DNA of 64,000 nucleotides from Ralstonia pickettii (lineage in GTDB: Bacteria; Pseudomonadota; Gammaproteobacteria; Burkholderiales; Burkholderiaceae). A program made the translations under genes and the position numbers. The notes below the pieces were generated by a model, which had not been told where the DNA came from, did not search any database, and saw nothing but the letters and a program-made list of their open reading frames with translations. Position 1 is the stretch's first letter, and every line of letters begins with the position of its first letter. The DNA lies in NCBI RefSeq assembly GCF_000607165.1, contig NZ_JFZG01000011.1:1-64000 (forward strand), given 5' to 3'. Shown piece by piece: positions 45,283 to 57,460 of this stretch.

Positions 45283-47394
45283 ATGAGCGATCTGCCATGG
45301 GAGCTTTACCTGGCATTGCTCAATACCTTGACGGTGGCGACCACGCTCGTCATCTTCATCAGCACCGCCGACGATTTCTTCCTGGATGCCTTCTACTGGG
45401 TGCGGGAGCTGTGGCTCTGGCCGCAGCGTGGGCGCACGCCGGTCACGATCTCGGCGCAATCGCTGCGCGAGCGCGAAGAGCAATGGCTCGCCATCATGGT
45501 GCCGGCGTGGAAGGAGTACGACGTCATCGCCAAGATGGTCGAGAACACCCTGGCGACGATGGAGTACACGCGCTTCATCATCTTTGCCGGCGCGTACCGC
45601 AACGATGCGGAGACCACCACCGAAGTCGAGCGCATGGTGCGCCGCTATCCCGGCCGCGTGGTGCGCGCAGCCGTCACGCACGATGGCCCGACGTGCAAGG
45701 CCGACTGCCTGAACACCATCATCCAGACCATCATCCGGCACGAGGCAGGCCACGGCATCCGCTTTGCCGGCGTGATCATGCATGACTGTGAAGACGTGAT
45801 CCACCCGCTGGAGCTGAAGTACTTCAACTACTTCATCCGCGATCAGGATCTGGTGCAGTTGCCGGTGCTATCGCTTGAGCGCAAGTGGTACGAGTGGGTG
45901 GCCGGTACGTACATGGATGACTTTTCCGAGACGCACCAGAAAGACCTGGTGGCGCGCCAGGCACTAACCGGCACGGTGCCTGGGGCCGGTGTTGCGCTGT
46001 GCTACAGCCGCCGCGCGATCGAAGCGGTGATGAAGGTGCGCGGCGATTCTCCGTTCAACACCAGCACGCTCACCGAAGACTACGACTTCAGTTTCCGACT
46101 GCGGGAACTCGGCATGCGTGAAGCATTCGTGCATTTCCCGATCTGCGAGAACGCAGAACCGGTTGAAGACGCCCAGGGCAAGACACGCACACGCTGGCGC
46201 TTTGGGCGGCGCAAGGGCGCACGCCCGCAACTGCTGGCCACGCGCGAGTACTTTCCGAGCACGTTCCGCACGGCGTACCGCCAGCGCGCGCGCTGGGTGC
46301 TCGGCATTGCGTTTCAGGGTTGGTTGCAGATGGGCTGGAACGGCAACCTCATCACCCGCTACATGTTCTTCCGGGACCGCAAGGGCGTGCTGACGGCCCT
46401 GTTCTCGATCCTGGCCTACGTGCTGTCGCTGAACTATCTGGCGCTAGCCGCGTTGATGTCAAAAGGCTTGGTCACCATTCCGGACGGCACGTTCGTGGTC
46501 GGCAGCATCTGGATGCAGGATCTGTTGGCTGTGAATGCGGCGCTGCTCGTCAATCGGCTGGCGCAGCGCGTGTACTTTGTCGGGCGGCTCAACGGCCCGC
46601 TGCAAGGCGTGCTGTGTTTGCCCAGGCTGGTGGTGAACAACTTCATCAACTTTTTCTCGGTATGCCGCGCGTGGAAGATCTTCCTGATCTACTGCCTGAC
46701 CGGCAAGCCTATCGCCTGGGACAAGACGCAGCACACCTATCTGTCGAACGACGCACTGGGCCGTACGCGCTGCAAGCTGGGCGAGACGCTCATCAAGTGG
46801 GAAGTGCTCACGCAGGAGCAGTTGGATGCCGCACTCGCCATCCAGCGCCAAACCGGACGCCGGCTTGGGCAAGTGCTGATCGAGCAGGGCCTGGTGACGC
46901 CCGATACGCTGGCCGATGCATTGGCCGAGCAGGTCGACCTGCCGCGCGTGAGCCTGACCAACGTCGTGCTCGGTGCGCTTGCCGATTGCCTGCCGCGTGA
47001 CTTGGCAGTACGGCATCACGTGGTGCCGTTCTCGATTGGCGAAGACGGCTCGCTCAACATCGCCGTGTCGGAGTTGCCCGACGGCGCAGTGCTGGAAGAG
47101 CTGGCCCATGCGGCCGGCCGCAAGGTCGCGTGCTTCATGGCGTGCGATCACGAAATGTCGGCCGAGCTGGCGCAGATGGCCGACCCCAACCGCCGTACCA
47201 CGGTCGTGTTTGGCCCGGCGGCGCATTCGGCCATGCTGGCCGTCGAATCCATGACGGGCGCCGGCCCAGGTGTTGCAGCCGGCACGGCACCCGCACCCGA
47301 GGCTTCCACCATCCCCCCGATTCCTGTGCCGCCGGACCTGCCCCCTGGGCCAGACCCGCGGCCGAACCCATCTGTTGCGGGAGGTGTGGCATGA
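45283..47394 (+). CDS. nfrB: NfrB-like glycosyltransferase with C-terminal MshEN (c-di-GMP-type) domain
   Basis: 703 aa. An N-terminal helix (about 10-30) leads to a GT2-type catalytic domain: the acidic HDCED motif at 167-171, the TED motif at 264-266 and Q-R-x-R-W at 334-338, as in processive beta-glycan synthases. A membrane region follows (about 365-475). The C-terminal part contains two 24-residue MshEN repeats. One is at 498-521 (K-L-G-E-T-L start, less canonical). The other is at 527-550 (R-L-G-x-x-L, G, L-x-x-A-L-x-x-Q, canonical). This two-part layout matches bacteriophage N4 adsorption protein B (NfrB), the c-di-GMP-responsive glycan polymerase of E. coli. It is coupled to the nfrA-like gene by an ATGA overlap. 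Confidence 0.85.
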   Translation: MSDLPWELYLALLNTLTVATTLVIFISTADDFFLDAFYWVRELWLWPQRGRTPVTISAQSLREREEQWLAIMVPAWKEYDVIAKMVENTLATMEYTRFIIFAGAYRNDAETTTEVERMVRRYPGRVVRAAVTHDGPTCKADCLNTIIQTIIRHEAGHGIRFAGVIMHDCEDVIHPLELKYFNYFIRDQDLVQLPVLSLERKWYEWVAGTYMDDFSETHQKDLVARQALTGTVPGAGVALCYSRRAIEAVMKVRGDSPFNTSTLTEDYDFSFRLRELGMREAFVHFPICENAEPVEDAQGKTRTRWRFGRRKGARPQLLATREYFPSTFRTAYRQRARWVLGIAFQGWLQMGWNGNLITRYMFFRDRKGVLTALFSILAYVLSLNYLALAALMSKGLVTIPDGTFVVGSIWMQDLLAVNAALLVNRLAQRVYFVGRLNGPLQGVLCLPRLVVNNFINFFSVCRAWKIFLIYCLTGKPIAWDKTQHTYLSNDALGRTRCKLGETLIKWEVLTQEQLDAALAIQRQTGRRLGQVLIEQGLVTPDTLADALAEQVDLPRVSLTNVVLGALADCLPRDLAVRHHVVPFSIGEDGSLNIAVSELPDGAVLEELAHAAGRKVACFMACDHEMSAELAQMADPNRRTTVVFGPAAHSAMLAVESMTGAGPGVAAGTAPAPEASTIPPIPVPPDLPPGPDPRPNPSVAGGVA

Positions 47395-49124
47395 CACACG
47401 AGAGAGTCAACCGTTTAACCGTGCGCCATCTGCGCTGGCCGATTGCTGCGGCAGTGTGGGCGTTGTGTCATGGCGTATCACTGGCAGAGCAGCCTGCGCC
47501 GTTGCAGCCCGATGCCTACTTTCGCGCCGATCGCGCTTATCACGCCATCGATGGCAACAAGCTCGACGATGCCGAAGCCGCCACGCGTGCGGCATTGGCC
47601 GTGCAGCCTGACAGCCTGCAACTGAACCTGCTGCTGCTGGATGTGCTCACCCGCAAGGGCCAGTTGGATGCGGCACGCGCGCAGGCCGATGCGTTGCTGC
47701 AGAAGTATCCCGACGAGCCACGCGTGTACGCCCAGCACGGGTTCCTGGCGCAGAAGGCCAACGACCCCGCCGTCGCTGAACGAGACTTTGCGCGCGCCGT
47801 GCAAGGCACCGACTGGACCGCGCAGGAGCAGCGCAACCTGCATCTGGCCTGGTCGGACAGCGCGTATTCCGCCAAGCATCCGCAGGCTGCCCTCGATGCG
47901 CTCAGCGGCATGAAGGACAACCCCGATGCCGACGTGCAAGTGCGTCTCGCGCAGTCACGCCTGCAATTGGGCGACCGGGATGGCGCAATGCAGGCTGCCA
48001 CGCTGGCCGCCGAACACGCTACGGACCCGGCGCGCCAGCGCTACGCCAAGGCGCTGCTCGCCCAGGCGATGGCGCCCGAAGCGCAGGCTGCGCCCACGTC
48101 CGCCAATGATCCGCGCGTGATCGGCCAGCGTGAGTTGAACGAGGCTTACAGCCATCTGCGTGCGCGTGACGACCGCGCTGCATTGGCAGCGTTCCAGCGC
48201 GGCTTCGCCACGGGCGAGGGTAACTGGACCCACTACGCCGATGCCGCCTACGCAGCAAAGCGGCTGGGCGACAACCCGACTGCCATCAAGCTCTTCCGAG
48301 AGAGCCTCGACCATGCCGACGCCGATGCCAACAGCGACCGCGGTGGCAATGGAGACGACCGCCTTCCACCGGATCGCCGCTTCGGCTACCGGCGTGAAGT
48401 CGAGCAGATGCAGCGCACGTTCGGCATGGTTCTCTCTGGCGCGTATCAAACGTCTGCATTCGGTTTGCCCAACACGGTGAGCGCGGGGCAGGCTGGCGCA
48501 GAGGTGTACTGGCAACCGCCCGGTATCGGCTACCGCGACGGCAGCATCTTCCAGCTCTTCGTACGCGGCTACGACAGCGTGTACGACCGCAACGGCAACA
48601 CGGGTCTGCCGACCGCGCAGGGCTCGGTGGGCGCACGCTACAAGCCGATCAAGGACATCAACCTGGTGTTCACCGCCGAGCGTCTCTTCCGCATCGGGCA
48701 ACTGACCACCAACGATACTTTGCTGCGCATCGGCTTCTCGACCGACCAGGGGCTCGACCTGCAGGTCACCAAGCCGCGCTGGCAGACGTGGCAGGTGTTT
48801 GGCGAGGGCGCGTACTTCCTCAACCAGGGCCGCATGATCGTCAGCACGGAAATGCGCTACGGACACACGTGGTTACTTAACTCGATCAGCGATCGCCTGA
48901 CGGTCTATCCGCATATCGTGCTGGCGGGCGATCACGACAACAAGGCGATCGATCAGCGGCTCGCACTGGGTGTCGGCCCAGGCATCAACTTCCGCTACTG
49001 GTTTCGCGAGTCGCACTACGCAGCGCCGGCCAGTTGGCTGGATTTGACCGTGCAATACCGCTTGCCATTGACGCACGCGGATCGAGCAAAGGGGGTGGTC
49101 GCGCGAGCCATTCTTTGGTTCTAA
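47391..49124 (+). CDS. nfrA: NfrA-like outer-membrane TPR/beta-barrel protein
   Basis: 577 aa, much shorter than E. coli NfrA (about 990). A signal peptide (ends near VSLAEQPA, about 32) is followed by helical TPR-like repeats (about 40-310: AYHAIDGNKLDDAEAATRAALAVQPDS, LDVLTRKGQLDAARAQADALLQKYP, AYSHLRARDDRAALAAFQRGFATG, AAKRLGDNPTAIKLFRESLD). An outer-membrane beta-barrel domain comes last (about 335-577), closing in an aromatic C-terminal Phe (ILWF) as in Bam substrates. It probably guides the glycan through the outer membrane. Its ATG overlaps the nfrB stop and GGGAGG precedes it. A 248-bp gap follows. Confidence 0.82.
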   Translation: MTHERVNRLTVRHLRWPIAAAVWALCHGVSLAEQPAPLQPDAYFRADRAYHAIDGNKLDDAEAATRAALAVQPDSLQLNLLLLDVLTRKGQLDAARAQADALLQKYPDEPRVYAQHGFLAQKANDPAVAERDFARAVQGTDWTAQEQRNLHLAWSDSAYSAKHPQAALDALSGMKDNPDADVQVRLAQSRLQLGDRDGAMQAATLAAEHATDPARQRYAKALLAQAMAPEAQAAPTSANDPRVIGQRELNEAYSHLRARDDRAALAAFQRGFATGEGNWTHYADAAYAAKRLGDNPTAIKLFRESLDHADADANSDRGGNGDDRLPPDRRFGYRREVEQMQRTFGMVLSGAYQTSAFGLPNTVSAGQAGAEVYWQPPGIGYRDGSIFQLFVRGYDSVYDRNGNTGLPTAQGSVGARYKPIKDINLVFTAERLFRIGQLTTNDTLLRIGFSTDQGLDLQVTKPRWQTWQVFGEGAYFLNQGRMIVSTEMRYGHTWLLNSISDRLTVYPHIVLAGDHDNKAIDQRLALGVGPGINFRYWFRESHYAAPASWLDLTVQYRLPLTHADRAKGVVARAILWF

Positions 49125-49372
49125 GTCAGTCCTGGATTCAAGCAGACCCCAGTCAGAGGTGTCGCAGATGAAACGTTTTTGACCGCCGAGGGAAACGGGT
49201 AACAAAGAGGAGTTGCAGCGGCATCCGAAGGATGGCGTCGCAGCGCCATGGCGAGTCAAAGCGGGACAGTTGGCACGGCCTTCGCTCAATGGCGAAGTCT
49301 GCGCCGACGTCAGAAGCGACACGTTCGTCGTCGCGCTTTTGCATGCGCCGATGCAGACGACTGGGGGGAATC

Positions 49373-50632
49373 ATGACAGGGAAAATTTTGACCGTGTTCG
49401 GCACGCGCCCGGAGGCCATCAAGATGGCGCCGCTGGTGCAGGCATTGCAGGCCGAGGCAGGCTTTACCTCGGCGGTGTGCGTGAGCGCGCAGCACCGGCA
49501 GATGCTGGATCAAGTGCTGGAACTCTTCGGCATCGTGCCGGAGTTTGACCTCAACCTGATGCGGCCTGGGCAGACGTTATCCGACATCACGTCCAACGTG
49601 TTGGGCGGCATCGACGGCGTGCTCGATGCCTACAAGCCCGATGCCGTGCTCGTCCACGGCGACACGACGACCACGCTGGCGGCAAGCCTCGCGGCGTTCT
49701 ACCGACGCATTCCGGTCGGGCATGTGGAAGCAGGCTTGCGTACCGGCAACATCTGGTCGCCATGGCCGGAAGAGCTGAACCGGCGCGTCACCGATTCCGT
49801 GACGACCTGGCACTTCGCGCCCACGGCCGAATCGCGCCAGAACCTGCTGGACGAGGGCATCGACCCGGAGCAGGTCACGCTGACCGGCAACACCGTCATC
49901 GATGCGCTGCTGGCCGTGAAGCAGCGGCTGGACGACGACGCCACGCTGTCAGCCCAGATGGCGGCGCGCTATCCGTTCCTGGAGGCCGGGCGTCGGATGA
50001 TCCTGGTGACGGGCCATCGCCGCGAGAACTTCGGCGAGCCGTTCGAGAACTTCTGCGTTGCGCTGCGCCTGCTGGCGGCGCGTCATCCGGATGTGCAGGT
50101 TGTGTATCCGGTGCACCTGAACCCGAACGTGCAGCAGCCGGTCAACGCCATCCTTTCCGGCCACGACAACGTTCACCTGATTGCGCCGCAGGACTACCTG
50201 CCGTTCGTCTACCTGATGGATCGGGCGTACCTGATCGTTACCGATTCAGGCGGCATTCAGGAAGAGGCGCCCGCGCTGGGCAAACCGGTGCTGGTGACGC
50301 GCGACACCACCGAGCGGCCGGAGGCCGTGGCATCGGGCACCGCGCGGCTGGTCGGCACCGATACGCAACGCATCGTCGATGAAGCAGAAACGCTGCTCAA
50401 CAACGCCGCCGAATACGAGCGCATGGCGCAAGCCCACAACCCTTATGGCGACGGCCAGGCCTGCCGGCGCATTGTCGATGCGCTGAAGAAGGCCTTTGCC
50501 ACGCAGCCGCAGAAGGTGGCGCGCGGTCCGCAACTCATTCGCAAACCGGCCACCGAGGCCGAAATCATCGATCTGGAAGCGGCGCGTGCCACCGCGCAAG
50601 GGTCGTCAACGCAGCACCGCCTGAACGGTTAG
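49373..50632 (+). CDS. wecB: UDP-N-acetylglucosamine 2-epimerase (non-hydrolysing)
   Basis: 419 aa, about 40 residues longer than E. coli WecB due to an extra C-terminal tail ([21 protein letters not shown]...). The GT-B fold motifs include [63 protein letters not shown] and [19 protein letters not shown]. It makes UDP-ManNAc from UDP-GlcNAc in the cytosol, supplying precursor for the adjacent polymerase. GGGGGG precedes ATG 49373. Another wecB copy may exist in the genome for other surface sugars. Confidence 0.93.
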
Positions 50633-50641
50633 GAGGCTTTG

Positions 50642-51094
50642 ATGAAAGCGAAGCAAATCGGGGGCGGCGTGTTGGTTGCCTCCGCACTTGTTGCCGGGTG
50701 GCTGATCGTGACGCCGCCGTGGGCTGGTGATGGCGGCGTACCCGCCATCGTGACCGGCGCGACGGGCCAGGGCAGCCCCAGTATCGACACAGACAAGAAA
50801 GCCCCAGCGCCCGCGTCGTCCAGGGCGACCGCCACGGCTGCGCCACCCATGCAGCCCACCGTTGTGGCAGCAGTCACACCCAGGCCCGTGACTGGAGGCG
50901 CGCGCGCCTACGGCTACGGCGTCATGGATGAGAACGGACAGGTCATTCCACCGCCACGCACGGCAGTGATGACCGAAGTCCGCCCCGGCACGCCGGAAAA
51001 CGAGACGGCAGGTACAGACCGTGGCCACGATCGTGGCCCCAACTTCAACCTCGGGCTCTACCGCCAAGCGGACGGCTCGTTCTATCGCCCATGA
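50642..51094 (+). CDS. Small anchored hypothetical protein in the glycan cluster
   Basis: 150 aa. AGGAGG lies 5 nt before ATG 50642. An N-terminal hydrophobic anchor (about 7-25, IGGGVLVASALVAGWLIVT) is followed by an Ala/Pro/Thr-rich linker and a C-terminal globular-looking portion (GARAYGYGVMDENGQVIPPPRTAV, PNFNLGLYRQADGSFYRP). No family is recognised. The position between wecB and the deacetylase-like gene, with stop/start overlap by ATGA at 51091, points to a periplasmic component of the glycan machinery. Confidence 0.7.
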   Translation: MKAKQIGGGVLVASALVAGWLIVTPPWAGDGGVPAIVTGATGQGSPSIDTDKKAPAPASSRATATAAPPMQPTVVAAVTPRPVTGGARAYGYGVMDENGQVIPPPRTAVMTEVRPGTPENETAGTDRGHDRGPNFNLGLYRQADGSFYRP

Positions 51095-51117
51095 TTGTCA
51101 TGAGTCGGAGAGTCATC

Positions 51118-52830
51118 ATGAAGACATTGCTACGTAAGTTCCTGTGCGCGCTCGTCTTTGCGGGCGGCCTGCTCGGCATCTCGCTGACAGCGCCAGCGCA
51201 GGCTGCCACCTGCACGATCGGGCTCGGGTCCATCTGCGTGACGGTGGCGGGAACGACAACCAGTACGCCAGCCCCGATGCTGGTGCTGTACGACGCCCCG
51301 CCAAACGACCAGTACACCAACCTGGGCAAGGCGTACGCGATCATGCTGTACAACCTGCTCGCGCACTTCAACACCACCATCACGATGCTGCCCGTGCAGA
51401 ACTACACGGCTGGCATGACCGAGCAGTACACCGCCATCTTCTACATGGGGAGTTACTACAACAACCCCATACCGGCGGCGTTCCTGTCGGATGTGACCAC
51501 CACGCAGAAGACCGTGGTCTGGTTCAAGTACAACCTGTGGGAACTTGCCTGGAACGCGGCGTATCCGTTCACCTCGCGTTACGGCATCAATTTTGTCGGT
51601 CTGCGCGGCATGAACTCGGCACCGTCGGCCACTACACCAAATCCGGGGTTCTTCGATACGGTGTCGTACAAGAGCCAGACCATGACCAAGTACTACGCCT
51701 TCAATGCCACGACCGGCGCCATCAGCGCTGATCCGGACATTGGCGTGACCTCGGTGGCTGATCCCACCAAGGCGAGCAGTGTGGTGACGATCACCAATTC
51801 CGTTACGCAGGAGACCGCCCCGTACATCATGCACTCGGGCAACTTCTGGTACGTGGCCGACATGCCGTTCTCGTATATCGGCCCACGCGACCGCTACCTG
51901 GCGATGTGCGACATGCTGCATGACATCCTGGGTACCAATGCGCCCACCCTGCACCGCGCGCTGGTGCGCCTGGAAGATGTCAACGCCACCAACACCGTGA
52001 AGTCCATCAACACGCTGACGGACTATCTGTACAGCTTGAAGATTCCGTTCTCGATCGCCACCATCCCGCTGTACACGGACCCGAACGGCGTCTACAACGG
52101 CGGCGTGTCGCAGACGATCCACCTGGTCAACGCGACGGGGCTCAAATCAGCGCTCAACCATGCGTTGCCACGTGGGGGGAAGATCCTGATGCACGGCTAC
52201 ACGCACCAGTACAGCAACATCCCGAACCTTATCAACGCGGTCAGCGCGAACGACTTCGAGTTCTGGCTCGCTACGCAGAACCGGCCTGTGAACGAAGATT
52301 CAACGCAATGGGCAGCAGGGCGATTGTCTTCCGGGCTGCTGGAGTTCCAGCTCAATGGCTACGCGCCGTTCGCCTGGGAGGCGCCGCACTATCAATCGTC
52401 TCCGCTGTCGATCAAGGCCGTGCCGCAGTACTTCAAGAACACCTACCAGCGCGTGGTGTATTACACATCGGATAACCCGCAGACCTTGAACTCGACCACC
52501 GCAGGACATGATTTTTCGGTTGGCCAGTTCTTCCCCTACATCATTCAGAAGGACTACTACAACCAGCGCATCATTCCGGAAAACCTGGGCAACGTGGAAT
52601 ACAACATCTGCAATATCGATCCGTCGTCATGCCTGACGTACACCGCACAGGACATCCTGACCAACGCGACGTATGCACAGGTGGTACGCGACGGCTTTGC
52701 CTCGTTCTTCTTCCATCCGTTCTGGCTGGAGCCCGATCTTGGCACGCCGGGCTATACCGACTTCCAGACCATCATCACAGGTATCACCAGCATGGGGTAC
52801 ACCTGGGTTGACGCTAGCACGGTGAAGTGA
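51118..52830 (+). CDS. DUF2334 polysaccharide deacetylase-like protein
   Basis: 570 aa with a signal peptide (MKTLLRKFLCALVFAGGLLGISLTAPAQA). GGAG lies 7 nt before ATG 51118 (an alternative ATG at 51091 overlaps the previous stop). The C-terminal half carries the DUF2334 (NodB-like, metal-dependent deacetylase) motifs: Asp287 in RLEDVNA, and His359/His363 in HGYTHQY. The N-terminal third is an unknown beta-rich region (VVWFKYNLWELAW, MNSAPSATTPNPG). It would deacetylate the exported glycan, as PgaB or IcaB does in PNAG pathways (inference). Confidence 0.8.
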   Translation: MKTLLRKFLCALVFAGGLLGISLTAPAQAATCTIGLGSICVTVAGTTTSTPAPMLVLYDAPPNDQYTNLGKAYAIMLYNLLAHFNTTITMLPVQNYTAGMTEQYTAIFYMGSYYNNPIPAAFLSDVTTTQKTVVWFKYNLWELAWNAAYPFTSRYGINFVGLRGMNSAPSATTPNPGFFDTVSYKSQTMTKYYAFNATTGAISADPDIGVTSVADPTKASSVVTITNSVTQETAPYIMHSGNFWYVADMPFSYIGPRDRYLAMCDMLHDILGTNAPTLHRALVRLEDVNATNTVKSINTLTDYLYSLKIPFSIATIPLYTDPNGVYNGGVSQTIHLVNATGLKSALNHALPRGGKILMHGYTHQYSNIPNLINAVSANDFEFWLATQNRPVNEDSTQWAAGRLSSGLLEFQLNGYAPFAWEAPHYQSSPLSIKAVPQYFKNTYQRVVYYTSDNPQTLNSTTAGHDFSVGQFFPYIIQKDYYNQRIIPENLGNVEYNICNIDPSSCLTYTAQDILTNATYAQVVRDGFASFFFHPFWLEPDLGTPGYTDFQTIITGITSMGYTWVDASTVK

Positions 52831-52832
52831 CG

Positions 52833-53720
52833 ATGTGCCGGATGCGCTTGTTACTGGCGACTGTCATGCTGGCATTGAGCGCATCCTCTGAGGCCGCAGG
52901 GTCGGTGGGCGCCATGCCCGCCGGCCCTGTGCCGTTGTATGGCGTGACGGTTGACGCTGTGGACAACGTGCCTGCCGTGGTGGACGCGCTGTCGCACCTC
53001 TCGCGCACGCCCACGGTGCGCGTCGTCTTTGATGAAGGCATGGACGCGCCGCATTACGTTGGGGCGGTGGCGGCCATCCGGGACGTCGCGTATGTGATGG
53101 GCGAACTGGTGGATTCCTCCACACTCAAGCAATACACCACACCGCAACTGCGCGAGCGTGCCGCCGCTTACCTGCACACGCTCGGCAGCAATGTCGACGT
53201 CTGGGAAATCGGCAACGAGATCAACGGCGAGTGGACCGGCCCCACACGCGACGTGATCGACAAGACCATGGCGGCCTATGAAGTCATCAGAGCCGGCGGC
53301 GGCCGCACGGCGCTCACGCTGTACTACAACGAGGGCTGCGCCGAGCAGCCGTCACGCGCGATGTTCGAGTGGGTGCAACGTAATGTGCCGCTGCGCTTGC
53401 GCGATGGGCTCGACTACGTCTTCATCAGCTTCTATGAAGACGATTGCAAGATCGCACCGCCCGATTGGAACGCAGTGTTCACCAGGCTAGGCGGACTGTT
53501 TCCGCACGCCGCTTTGGGGTTTGGAGAAGTCGGGACGCGGCATGCCGTACGCAAGCCGGCGCTCGTCGCGCACTACTACGGGCTCGCGGTCACGCATCCT
53601 CGCTTTGTCGGCGGCTACTTCTGGTGGTACTTCCGGCAAGACATGGTGCCGCGCTCAAGGCCGCTATGGCGCAGCCTCGATGCGGCGTTCCTGAGCATGC
53701 CCGTGGCGGTCAGCCGCTAG
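52833..53720 (+). CDS. Secreted clan-A-type glycoside hydrolase
   Basis: 295 aa. A signal peptide (MCRMRLLLATVMLALSASSEA) is followed by a TIM-barrel-like sequence. The conserved acid/base is Glu129 in IGNEING and the nucleophile is Glu232 in GFGEVG, the pattern of GH5/GH39/GH53-like clan A enzymes. GGTGAAGTGACG before the start is a poor Shine-Dalgarno, and an earlier GTG at 52827 overlapping the previous stop is possible. As part of the cluster, it probably trims or cleaves the glycan, as many exopolysaccharide operons include a hydrolase. It overlaps the convergent mscS gene by 11 bp. Confidence 0.75.
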   Translation: MCRMRLLLATVMLALSASSEAAGSVGAMPAGPVPLYGVTVDAVDNVPAVVDALSHLSRTPTVRVVFDEGMDAPHYVGAVAAIRDVAYVMGELVDSSTLKQYTTPQLRERAAAYLHTLGSNVDVWEIGNEINGEWTGPTRDVIDKTMAAYEVIRAGGGRTALTLYYNEGCAEQPSRAMFEWVQRNVPLRLRDGLDYVFISFYEDDCKIAPPDWNAVFTRLGGLFPHAALGFGEVGTRHAVRKPALVAHYYGLAVTHPRFVGGYFWWYFRQDMVPRSRPLWRSLDAAFLSMPVAVSR

Positions 53721-54897: not shown

Positions 54898-55914
54898 TTA
54901 CTGCCGCAGCGTTGCCTTCGGCTCGGCGTCGGTCGGCACGCACACGCGGTTGCGGCCCTGTCGCTTGGCTTCCATCAGGCCGAGATCGGCATCGGCCAAA
55001 AGGCGTGCCAGGTCTTGCCCGGGGCGCAGCGGTGCGGCGCCCACGCTCACTGTCAGCGGCCCCACGGGCGTTTGCGTGCCGGCCACCGCCGTCTTGAGCC
55101 TGTCCACCACGGCAAGCGCGCCGGTCAGGCCGCAGCCCGGCAGCAGCACAGCAAACTCGTCACCGCCCAGACGGCCGAACAGGTCAGCCGGGCGCAGCAC
55201 GCCGGCCAGCGCATCGGACAGCGCGACGAGTGCCTCGTCGCCGGCGGCATGTCCCCACGTATCGTTGATGGATTTGAAGTGATCGACGTCGAGGTAGAGC
55301 GCGCACAGCGGCTCGGCATGATGCTGCGCACGTTCGACCGCAAAGGTGCCCAGTTCGAAGAAGCGTTGCCGCGCGAGCATACCGGTCAGGTGGTCGGTGT
55401 TGGCGCGATCGGCCAGGCTGCGTTCGGCCGCAAAGTGCCGCGCCATGGCGCGCAGCAGGTAGTGGTGAATGACGGCGGCCGCAGCAATGCAGATTGGCAG
55501 ATAGAGCACCAGCCCCAGCCAGCCGTGGTGGATTGCTGTGGCGGGTTCTGGCGCGATCAGCAGGGCAACGATAGGCCCGGCCGTGCACAGCGCCATGGCG
55601 ATGCAGAAATCGCGCCGGTTGAGCCACGCGGGGCTGGTGGCAAGCGGCATCAGATAGAACGCCGGCAGGACCCATTGGAGCCCTGCCTGATGGCCGAACG
55701 CGATGATGGCCACTTCCTCTGCCAGCAGGTGCGTGAGCGCCAGCAGCCCCCACATGCCGGTGTGCCGATACCGCTGTGCGACCACCACGATCGCCATCAG
55801 CAGCAGGAGCAGCGCGAGCAGCGGCCCCGGCCGATGCAGCAGCCCGACTGACCAGCCCAGCACGATTGCGAAGGCGTAACCGAGCACGCCGCATTTGCTC
55901 AGCGCGATGATCAT
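54898..55914 (-). CDS. Membrane-bound diguanylate cyclase (GGDEF)
   Basis: 338 aa from ATG 55914. A longer form (start in the 56000 region) is possible because the reading frame stays open upstream to 56175. Five or six hydrophobic segments (a MASE-like sensor) precede a GGDEF domain (about 180-335). The domain has the active-site motif RLGGDEFAVL and an I-site R-P-A-D five residues before it, so product inhibition should be intact. It makes c-di-GMP. Located 1.2 kb from an MshEN-containing NfrB homologue, it is a candidate to feed that receptor. Confidence 0.85.
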   Translation of the reverse strand: MIIALSKCGVLGYAFAIVLGWSVGLLHRPGPLLALLLLLMAIVVVAQRYRHTGMWGLLALTHLLAEEVAIIAFGHQAGLQWVLPAFYLMPLATSPAWLNRRDFCIAMALCTAGPIVALLIAPEPATAIHHGWLGLVLYLPICIAAAAVIHHYLLRAMARHFAAERSLADRANTDHLTGMLARQRFFELGTFAVERAQHHAEPLCALYLDVDHFKSINDTWGHAAGDEALVALSDALAGVLRPADLFGRLGGDEFAVLLPGCGLTGALAVVDRLKTAVAGTQTPVGPLTVSVGAAPLRPGQDLARLLADADLGLMEAKRQGRNRVCVPTDAEPKATLRQ

Positions 55915-56140
55915 CGGCACAAAATGGCGCGCCTGATAGTCACGCGAGGGTGTGCGTGCGTCGGGCAGGTCGGAGGCGGTAGGCAGGTTCGCGCTCAAGG
56001 CAGGGCAAGAGAGACCCTCTGGCGCGACGGGATGATGCGGGCGCGGGCGGGGCCGAATTGCGCAACAAAGCGCGCATTCTAATGGCGGCAGGCAACCCCG
56101 TGCGCGGATTTTTAGTGGGGGGAATCCCGCAATGTGTGTC

Positions 56141-57460
56141 TCAGCCTGCCAGCACTTGCCACACCAGCCACACATTGGCGACGCTGATGACGATGAATAG
56201 CCCCCACGCCAGCCAAGACGTTAACCGACTGTTAACAAATACCCCCATCAGCGTGCGATCGCCCGTCATGCGGATCAGCGGAAGCATCGCAAACGGCAGT
56301 TGCAGGCCGAGCACCACCTGGCTGATGACAAGCAGTTTGCCGATGGCGTGGTCGCCCAGCATCGCCACGCCGATGAACGCGGGGATCAGCGCCAGTGCCC
56401 GCGTGATCAACCGCCGCTGCCAGCAGGGGATGCGCAAGTCGAGGAACCCCTCCATCAGGACCTGCCCCGCGATGGTGCCGGTAAAGGTCGAGCTTTGCCC
56501 CGCCGCCAGCAACGCGATGCCAAACAGCAGCCCGGCCAGCGCCGTTCCGACGATGGGCTCCAGCAGGTGGTAGGCGTCTTCGATGTCGGCCACGTTCTGA
56601 TGGCCGTGCGCGTTGAATGCCGCTGCCGCCAGGATCAGGATCGCGCCGTTCACGAGCAGCGCGAGGCTCAGCGACGCGATGGTGTCCAGCCGCGACAGGC
56701 CGATTGCCTCGCGCTTGGCATCCTCGGTGTTCGCCGTCATGCGCGTCTGCACGATGGACGAGTGCAGGTACAGGTTGTGCGGCATCACCGTGGCGCCGAG
56801 GATGCCGATGGCCAGATACAGCGGCTCGCGCTGGCTCACGGCCTGCCACGAGGGCATCAACCCGGCCGCTACCGAAGGCCAGTGCGGCTTGATGAGCACG
56901 AGTTCAACGAAGTAGCACAGCCCAATCGTGAGAATGAGCCCCAGCACGATGGCTTCCAGTTGGCGGAAGTTTTTGCCCTTCAGGCCCAGCACGATCAGCG
57001 TGTCCAGCGCGGTGAGCGCCACGCCCCAAAGGATCGGCACGCCCAGCAGCAGGTGGAAGGCCAGCGCGCAGCCCAGTACCTCAGCCAGGTCGCACGCAAT
57101 GATGGACAGCTCTGCCAGCAGCCATTGCACGCGCAATGCGCCAGGCTGATAGCGGTTGCGAGAGGCGCGCGCCAGGTCCATGCCGGTGACGATGCCCAGT
57201 CGTGCCGACAGGCACTGCAGCACCATGGCCGCCAGGCTGGAGAGCACGACCACGAACAGCAACGCATAGCCGTAACGTGAACCGGCTTCAATGTCGGTCG
57301 CCCAGTTGCCCGGGTCCATATAGCCGACCGACACCAGCAGCCCCGGCCCCGCAAAGCGCAGCAGCTTCTTCCACAGCGGCAGGCCGGGCGGCACGGCGAC
57401 GGTGCCGCGCACCTCGGATGGACAGAACGGCGCGGTGGCGGTCGTGGGCAGGCGGAACAT
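56141..57460 (-). CDS. mntH: Nramp family Mn(II)/Fe(II) transporter
   Basis: 439 aa with 11 hydrophobic segments. The signature SVGYMDPGNWATDI (DPGN, metal-binding Asp and Asn) is in helix 1. GATVMPHNLYLHS (MPHN, Met and His metal ligands) is in helix 6. It imports manganese or iron with protons across the inner membrane. There is no clear Fur or MntR box, although a small GGAATTCCGGAAT repeat is near its start. The diguanylate cyclase gene follows on the same strand, and its alternative N-terminus would overlap mntH. Confidence 0.92.
   Translation of the reverse strand: MFRLPTTATAPFCPSEVRGTVAVPPGLPLWKKLLRFAGPGLLVSVGYMDPGNWATDIEAGSRYGYALLFVVVLSSLAAMVLQCLSARLGIVTGMDLARASRNRYQPGALRVQWLLAELSIIACDLAEVLGCALAFHLLLGVPILWGVALTALDTLIVLGLKGKNFRQLEAIVLGLILTIGLCYFVELVLIKPHWPSVAAGLMPSWQAVSQREPLYLAIGILGATVMPHNLYLHSSIVQTRMTANTEDAKREAIGLSRLDTIASLSLALLVNGAILILAAAAFNAHGHQNVADIEDAYHLLEPIVGTALAGLLFGIALLAAGQSSTFTGTIAGQVLMEGFLDLRIPCWQRRLITRALALIPAFIGVAMLGDHAIGKLLVISQVVLGLQLPFAMLPLIRMTGDRTLMGVFVNSRLTSWLAWGLFIVISVANVWLVWQVLAG

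Follow-up and report, generated by a model that had tools for sequence, protein, structure and literature searches.

The window analyzed here is a 64,000-nucleotide stretch of Ralstonia pickettii (assembly GCF_000607165.1, contig NZ_JFZG01000011.1, positions 1 to 64,000), which carries at 45283-53720 six forward-strand genes: nfrB, nfrA, wecB, gene 4 (a small anchored protein), gene 5 (a DUF2334 protein) and gene 6 (a TIM-barrel protein). An earlier note on this DNA had described six co-directional genes forming an exopolysaccharide pathway, and all six open reading frames (ORFs) were present. The set is conserved beyond chance, its order being unchanged in 15 of the 16 genomes of the genus that were compared, including the source genome (G000; Gnnn and Lnnn denote genomes and loci). 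From gene content and order, conserved residues, predicted folds and repeated linkage to nfr, the locus is considered likely to be an Nfr-type synthase-dependent exopolysaccharide pathway with its own polymer-processing module. Its features are as follows.

45283..47394, forward strand: nfrB, 703 amino acids (aa), glycosyltransferase family 2 (GT2) polysaccharide synthase with a C-terminal MshEN domain; matches PRK15489 (NF012033, 1150 bits), PF13641, PF05157 and NF053729
46765..47193, forward strand: predicted MshEN-type region for binding cyclic diguanosine monophosphate (c-di-GMP), NfrB residues ~495-637; NF053729 E 4.5e-19 (498-550), PF05157 E 2e-11 (552-635)
47391..49124, forward strand: nfrA, 577 aa, predicted short outer-membrane tetratricopeptide repeat (TPR)/barrel exporter; NfrA_C PF13283 E 5e-47, TPR matches, ATGA overlap with nfrB
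49125..49372, forward strand: conserved 248-bp nfrA-wecB intergenic region, possibly a promoter or leader
49373..50632, forward strand: wecB, non-hydrolysing UDP-N-acetylglucosamine (UDP-GlcNAc) 2-epimerase giving UDP-N-acetylmannosamine (UDP-ManNAc); TIGR00236, 516 bits, E 7e-155
50639..51094, forward strand: gene 4, 151 aa, N-terminal hydrophobic segment and Pro/Ala-rich linker; putative partner of gene 5
51091, 51100 or 51118 (alternative starts)..52830, forward strand: gene 5, secreted DUF2334 protein (PF10096 E 6e-41), predicted metal-dependent polysaccharide N-deacetylase with an N-terminal flavodoxin/GATase-like domain
52827..53720 (GTG start), forward strand: gene 6, secreted TIM barrel resembling glycoside hydrolase (GH) clan GH-A, predicted glycoside hydrolase that falls in none of the known families

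The closest known system is NfrB-NfrA-YbcH with WecB of Escherichia coli (NGR, the N4 glycan receptor), which shares the MshEN-bearing GT2 synthase, the NfrA_C exporter and WecB as the source of UDP-ManNAc. The best NCBIfam model for the Ralstonia NfrB is PRK15489, and the protein, 39% identical to E. coli NfrB, retains the GT2 motifs DxD (read as DCED, aligned with that of E. coli NfrB), TED and QxxRW (QRARW), as well as the LG pair in each MshEN motif; the MshEN repeats of the earlier note proved to be a single MshEN region holding two such motifs. As that note had stated, nfrA (ATG at 47391) overlaps the end of nfrB (47394) by ATGA, and its product is much shorter than the E. coli protein (577 against 990 aa). 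WecB may be linked or encoded elsewhere in Nfr genomes, and here wecB lies inside the cluster. The E. coli K-12 order is nfrB-nfrA-ybcH, YbcH being a DUF4434 protein of 296 aa and thus of similar size to gene 6. Ralstonia lacks ybcH, which was not taken as defining the system because it is partly dispensable in E. coli, and has the additional gene 4, DUF2334 and GH-A-like genes; the claim that the modification and cleavage enzymes are missing from the E. coli locus therefore holds for DUF2334 and gene 6, but had passed over the ybcH that follows nfrBA there.

Control by c-di-GMP has been demonstrated for E. coli NfrB (PMC8669469; this and the other papers cited are drawn on for those parts of their text that were available), and the motifs alone suggest that the Ralstonia NfrB may bind c-di-GMP and make a ManNAc product. 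An improbable alternative is that the polymer is not ManNAc-based, NfrB using another UDP-N-acetylhexosamine and WecB serving a second pathway, in favour of which the ManNAc polymer of E. coli was postulated by Sellner et al. and, in the available parts of their paper, not chemically demonstrated (PMC8669472), and the two NfrB proteins are no more than 39% identical. Against this, wecB was present in most of the nfr loci that were mapped, with L058, L063 (a contig end), L176 and L178 as exceptions, and Junkermeier and Hengge had already reported the linkage of NfrB with WecB as a rule, along with diguanylate cyclase linkage in pseudomonads (PMC8669469).

The later genes were said to overlap or to lie within 25 bp of each other, which is correct for all junctions except nfrA-wecB, where the gap is 248 bp. 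In 13 other genomes of the genus this gap had a single long counterpart each, at 77-95% identity, further matches being short and weak, with a 32-base match in G006 and none in G012. A riboswitch in the gap was considered and rejected, as stems were predicted with a covariation term of ~0, and no Rfam match was obtained at E up to 5.

Within the genus, contig ends cut the set inside nfrB in G006 and inside both nfrB and gene 6 in G001, and the sixteenth genome, G012, was without NfrB, both gene 6 copies and the long DUF2334 protein. A second NfrB occurred in G004, G005 and G013, preceded by wecB and a 732-aa ORF, which was BcsB-like in the one case tested (L107). Two hundred genomes of the Burkholderiaceae were then surveyed at cut-offs of E 1e-20 for gene 6, 1e-40 for long DUF2334 and 1e-60 for NfrB. 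Gene 6 was found in 33 genomes, all of which also have long DUF2334, as does G343. NfrB was found in 65, among them 32 of the 33 gene 6 genomes, the last (G006) having a contig-end fragment. Outside Ralstonia, gene 6 lay 1.8-2.7 kb from an NfrB in 18 of 18 genomes (the NfrB of G418 reads with one internal stop), with DUF2334 1.2-1.9 kb from the same NfrB in 17 of them and 200 kb away in G396, and the second NfrB found in 9 of the 18 never adjoined gene 6. Fisher's test gave p ~1e-19 with G006 counted as positive and 8e-18 without it.

When GTDB genomes were scanned with gene 6 irrespective of nfr, 58 loci were returned, comprising 10 nfr-linked Ralstonia loci, 10 second Ralstonia paralogues, 7 loci from other Burkholderiaceae, 13 from Rhodanobacteraceae and 18 others. 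All seven of the other Burkholderiaceae loci contained nfrB, nfrA, wecB and DUF2334. In 10 of the 13 Rhodanobacteraceae loci (Dyella, Rhodanobacter), gene 6 and DUF2334 flanked an E. coli-type wecB-nfrB-nfrA-ybcH cluster, the exceptions being L149, with nfrA and ybcH only, and L143 and L165, with no nfr. Some part of the set was seen in three of the 18 remaining loci, namely nfrB-wecB-DUF2334-gene 6 in Hyalangium (L130), nfrA with a YbcH-like gene in L123 and a DUF2334 fragment in L133. An NfrB-like match was present in 10 of 12 genomes examined, that of Frateuria (L165) and that of a Pseudobdellovibrio (L125) lying elsewhere in the genome, and none was found in the genomes of L122 and L123.

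Six gene orders with gene 6 (ARRANGEMENTS) were distinguished: that of Ralstonia; that of Trinickia and L161 (DUF2334-wecB-nfrB-nfrA-YbcH-like, gene 6 convergent); that of the g12 genomes (gene 6 convergent with nfrBA, DUF2334 and a YbcH-like gene divergent); and those of L148, Dyella/Rhodanobacter and Hyalangium. Two further orders had DUF2334 and no gene 6, one in G343 (nfrB-nfrA-wecB-like-gene4-DUF2334, with a YbcH-like gene on the opposite strand) and one on a Comamonadaceae plasmid, where DUF2334 lies within the nfr operon (wecB-nfrB-small-DUF2334-TPR/NfrA-DUF4434). On a Streptomyces plasmid, DUF2334 was accompanied by wecB, a GT2 gene unmatched by the NfrB profile and a GH113 gene (PF22612 E 4e-58). 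Two separate clades of gene 6 carry the nfr link, one being that of Ralstonia and the other uniting Dyella, Trinickia and the second Ralstonia paralogue, and the well-supported branches of the tree require at least four changes of the nfr label, the deep forks being weak and long branches meeting. Because of these two clades and label changes, the association of gene 6 with nfr has probably been made more than once.

Gene 6 had no match in Pfam or NCBIfam. Its predicted model (predicted local distance difference test score, pLDDT, 91) contains eight strands, with E131 directly after strand 4 and E234 within strand 7, and among 45 homologues both glutamates are invariant and N130 is kept in 44. 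Enzymes of clan GH-A have a (b/a)8 barrel with an acid/base Glu that ends strand 4 and follows an Asn, and a nucleophile Glu on strand 7, a pattern that the barrel model, N130, E131 and E234 fit. The Foldseek matches were led by yeast Gas2 (E 1e-7), heparanase, GH5, beta-glucuronidase, GH1 and GH35 enzymes, glycosidases of clan GH-A families, with template modelling (TM) scores of at most ~0.65 among the matches listed. Weak family matches were obtained for some of the 45 members, 6 to GH53 (best E 4e-4) and 12 to an oxidoreductase C-terminal model (best E 6e-4). A relationship to GH113 was considered and the comparison gave no support for it, and a search of 50,697 phage records with gene 6 gave no match at E 1e-3. 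The presence of manno-active enzymes among the fold matches or neighbours, namely GH5 mannanases and the GH113 of Streptomyces, is consistent with a ManNAc backbone without proving it.

The second, diverged gene 6 paralogue occurs in all 15 nfr-bearing genomes of the genus (L105 9762-10757 and its orthologues) and is absent from the nfr-less G012. In four of five mapped loci (L105, L106, L111, L112) it adjoins a galU-like gene; none was seen in the short contig L110.

Gene 6 might instead be a non-catalytic periplasmic scaffold that replaces YbcH in the Ralstonia operon and leaves gene 5 alone to modify the polymer, which we regard as improbable. It would accord with the absence of DUF4434 above the cut-off from all 16 genomes of the genus (two matches were weak), with the YbcH-like gene that G343 has, on the other strand, at the site of Ralstonia gene 6, and with the description of YbcH as a putative scaffold whose role in E. 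coli is non-essential (PMC8669469). However, YbcH coexists with gene 6 in the Dyella and Rhodanobacter loci, and the Trinickia and g12 loci have a YbcH-like gene besides gene 6, although this similarity is weak (the one tested had a Pfam E of 0.009). Both predicted catalytic glutamates of gene 6 are moreover kept in every homologue, and homology of gene 6 to YbcH was rejected, as the profiles are unrelated (hhalign probability 0.3%) and YbcH showed no BLASTP similarity to gene 5 or gene 6.

The predicted model of gene 5 (pLDDT 74) gave human NDST1 as the best Foldseek match (E 2.3e-11, TM 0.37, 11% identity in the structural alignment), followed by GMP-synthase-like entries, ArnD, CE4 deacetylases and ThuA-like entries, of which the amidotransferase-like ones are taken to match the N-terminal domain. 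E286, D287, H359 and H363 were present in 27 of 27 homologues, so that a D-H-H metal triad of the CE4/CE18/NDST type can be proposed at D287, H359 and H363, in keeping with the NDST1 and CE4 fold matches. Published residues are D319, D320, H389, H393 and H529 for NDST1, whose domain assignment rests on homology to Agd3 (PMC10864358), and D377, D378, H510, H514 and H668 for Agd3 (PMC7229062); PelA holds a comparable deacetylase (PMC12022489). Human NDST1 and the fungal CE18 enzyme Agd3 likewise have a non-catalytic N-terminal domain followed by a (b/a) deacetylase domain with the triad, whereas gene 5 has no sulfotransferase domain, has E in place of the base D and is of low sequence identity. 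With a D-to-H distance of 72, its triad is spaced nearly as in NDST1 (69) and unlike that of Agd3 (132), and Agd3 was absent among the 50 Foldseek matches listed. A PDB sequence search with the gene 5 and gene 6 profiles gave matches at chance level only.

Gene 4 belonged to no significant family in Pfam or NCBIfam. A gene-4-like ORF was directly upstream of DUF2334 in the Ralstonia copies that could be checked, including the unlinked L051, L053, L054 and L055, and beside DUF2334 in L148, L174, L178 and L179; none was detected at the Trinickia, Dyella, L176, L177 and L173 loci. The extra gene 4-gene 5 copy of L051 (8749-10971, G015:C5) has no nfr nearby, shares its stretch with a relaxase-like/LPD7 protein and a lactonase-type propeller, and looks mobile. 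L174, on a Burkholderia vietnamiensis plasmid, has a gene-4-like and DUF2334 pair in a region with two diguanylate cyclase genes, near integrase and AbiE genes.

These results are best read as an Nfr (ManNAc-type) polymer that would be partly deacetylated and cut in the periplasm, the sugar and activities being suggested by sequence and fold models. WecB would make UDP-ManNAc, which NfrB, activated by c-di-GMP at its MshEN domain, would polymerise across the inner membrane. On the periplasmic side, some of the N-acetyl groups would be stripped by gene 5 together with its anchored partner, gene 4, and gene 6 would cut the chain, either clearing misdirected polymer or setting its length, before NfrA exported the product through the outer membrane. 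The substrate, the two enzyme activities and their order, and c-di-GMP control in Ralstonia are the conditional parts of this scheme. The pathway proposed in the earlier note was strengthened by linkage in several gene orders with two NfrB types, by fitting predicted folds and by the retained active-site residues, and the comparison across related genomes, which might have separated nfrBA from the processing genes, favoured it through the repeated linkage in the family; what is still surmised is which sugar is used, that the polymer is deacetylated and cleaved, that NfrB binds c-di-GMP and that one transcript spans the 248-bp gap.

Several observations weigh against this interpretation. The genome counts are not independent and gene 6 occurs in just 3 of 25 genera, and the varied linkage therefore outweighs the p-value; G012 is one negative only. 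None of the 10 second Ralstonia paralogues of gene 6 had nfr nearby, nor did gene 6 in 2 of the 13 Rhodanobacteraceae loci, and no nfr part was near it in 15 of the 18 other distant loci, several of which are short contigs. Four Ralstonia genomes have long DUF2334 paralogues away from nfr, and a further gene 4-5 copy adjoins mobilisation genes (L051); L053-L056 are likewise DUF2334 copies distant from nfr. Extra copies occur in other genomes, and shorter DUF2334 proteins were found in all 16 genomes of the genus. Gene 6 could be placed in no named GH family, matching no single one, and its Foldseek list includes KDO8P synthase and other non-glycosidase barrels. In gene 5, E286 occupies the site of an Asp in characterised enzymes, the acid H533 is present in 24 of 27 homologues and is Asp in the other three, and the model confidence and NDST1 TM score given above are low. 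Finally, in a survey of 300 genomes of the order, NfrB (E 1e-60) occurred in 14, including G000, and BLASTP of the stretches around the other 13, some cut by contig ends, gave no DUF2334 and no gene 6.

The least probable of the alternatives raised here is that the targets of genes 5 and 6 are another surface glycan or foreign glycans, in scavenging or predation, and that the two genes only share a neighbourhood with nfr. The nfr-unlinked members on Bdellovibrionota, Bacteroidota and Actinomycetota contigs, the second Ralstonia paralogues and the copy beside mobilisation genes would suit this explanation, but the linkage recurs although gene order varies, and where there are two NfrB copies it is to one of them; nor is any of the 33 gene 6 genomes of the family without NfrB when the G006 fragment is counted.

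Other nfr loci carry different accessory genes. Among those of the order, a DUF4434-like gene was present in L057, L059 and L063, an AlgX-type gene in L062 and YbcH in L064-L069. A BcsB-like gene stands just before nfrB in L057, L058, L059, L060, L107 and L183, an accessory that is unmentioned in the available parts of the published survey (PMC8669469), which describes an alginate-type acetyltransferase cluster with Nfr in Simplicispira. These loci share wecB, nfrB and nfrA with that of Ralstonia, whereas no DUF2334 and no gene 6 were seen in the mapped loci with BcsB-like and DUF4434-like or with AlgX-type genes. Two genes downstream of the Ralstonia operon and convergent with it, a GGDEF protein is encoded at 54898-56175 on the reverse strand. 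A tie between this diguanylate cyclase and the operon was considered and is not used as evidence: it accompanies nfr in 12 of the 15 Ralstonia loci examined (not in L042, L120 and L127, the last two of which end early), but so do unrelated neighbours, and 10 non-Ralstonia loci gave a single partial match (39%/122 aa).

The main text of PMC8669469 contains neither 'Ralstonia' nor 'hydrolase' nor 'deacetyl', and no host hydrolase or deacetylase for Nfr is described in the available parts of PMC8669469 and PMC8669472. Among the open-licence PMC papers listed, judged by title and the start of the abstract, none was on Nfr combined with a DUF2334 deacetylase or hydrolase, and the one that brings together NfrB and Ralstonia names Ralstonia, in its available parts, solely in connection with a phage. 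WecB-requiring phages bear tailspikes that are glycan deacetylases, as reported by Sellner et al. (PMC8669472).

The preferred reading, a polymer processed by genes 5 and 6, makes the locus a new version of the Nfr pathway, to which a plausible processing module is repeatedly linked, the chief novelties being a candidate GH-A hydrolase family and the assignment of DUF2334. Pel and poly-N-acetylglucosamine (PNAG) offer the nearest parallel in having a secreted deacetylase and a glycoside hydrolase dedicated to a synthase-made polymer (PelA, PgaB), as predicted here from the genes; Ralstonia has two separate genes, for DUF2334 and an unassigned GH-A-like barrel, and not fused domains. The other well-studied synthase-dependent polymers controlled by c-di-GMP, namely Pel, PNAG, alginate and cellulose, each have a hydrolase or lyase of their own, and in many cases an enzyme that modifies the polymer as well. 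It is possible, and put forward tentatively, that Nfr polymers in several lineages are handled by a dedicated module, consisting of a DUF2334 relative of the heparan-sulfate N-deacetylase fold with its small partner and a new GH-A family acting on mannosamine polymers, and that this yields a poly-mannosamine that is partly cationic, is controlled by c-di-GMP and has its parallels in Pel and PNAG. If true, the Nfr system would gain both a host hydrolase and a host deacetylase, a candidate glycosidase family would be defined together with its expected substrate, DUF2334 would receive a testable function, and enzymes would become available for studying the glycan that serves N4 as receptor, whose chemistry is unsolved. 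Host deacetylation could then remove the acetyl groups read by N4-type phages, and mobile copies of genes 4 and 5 could spread the trait.

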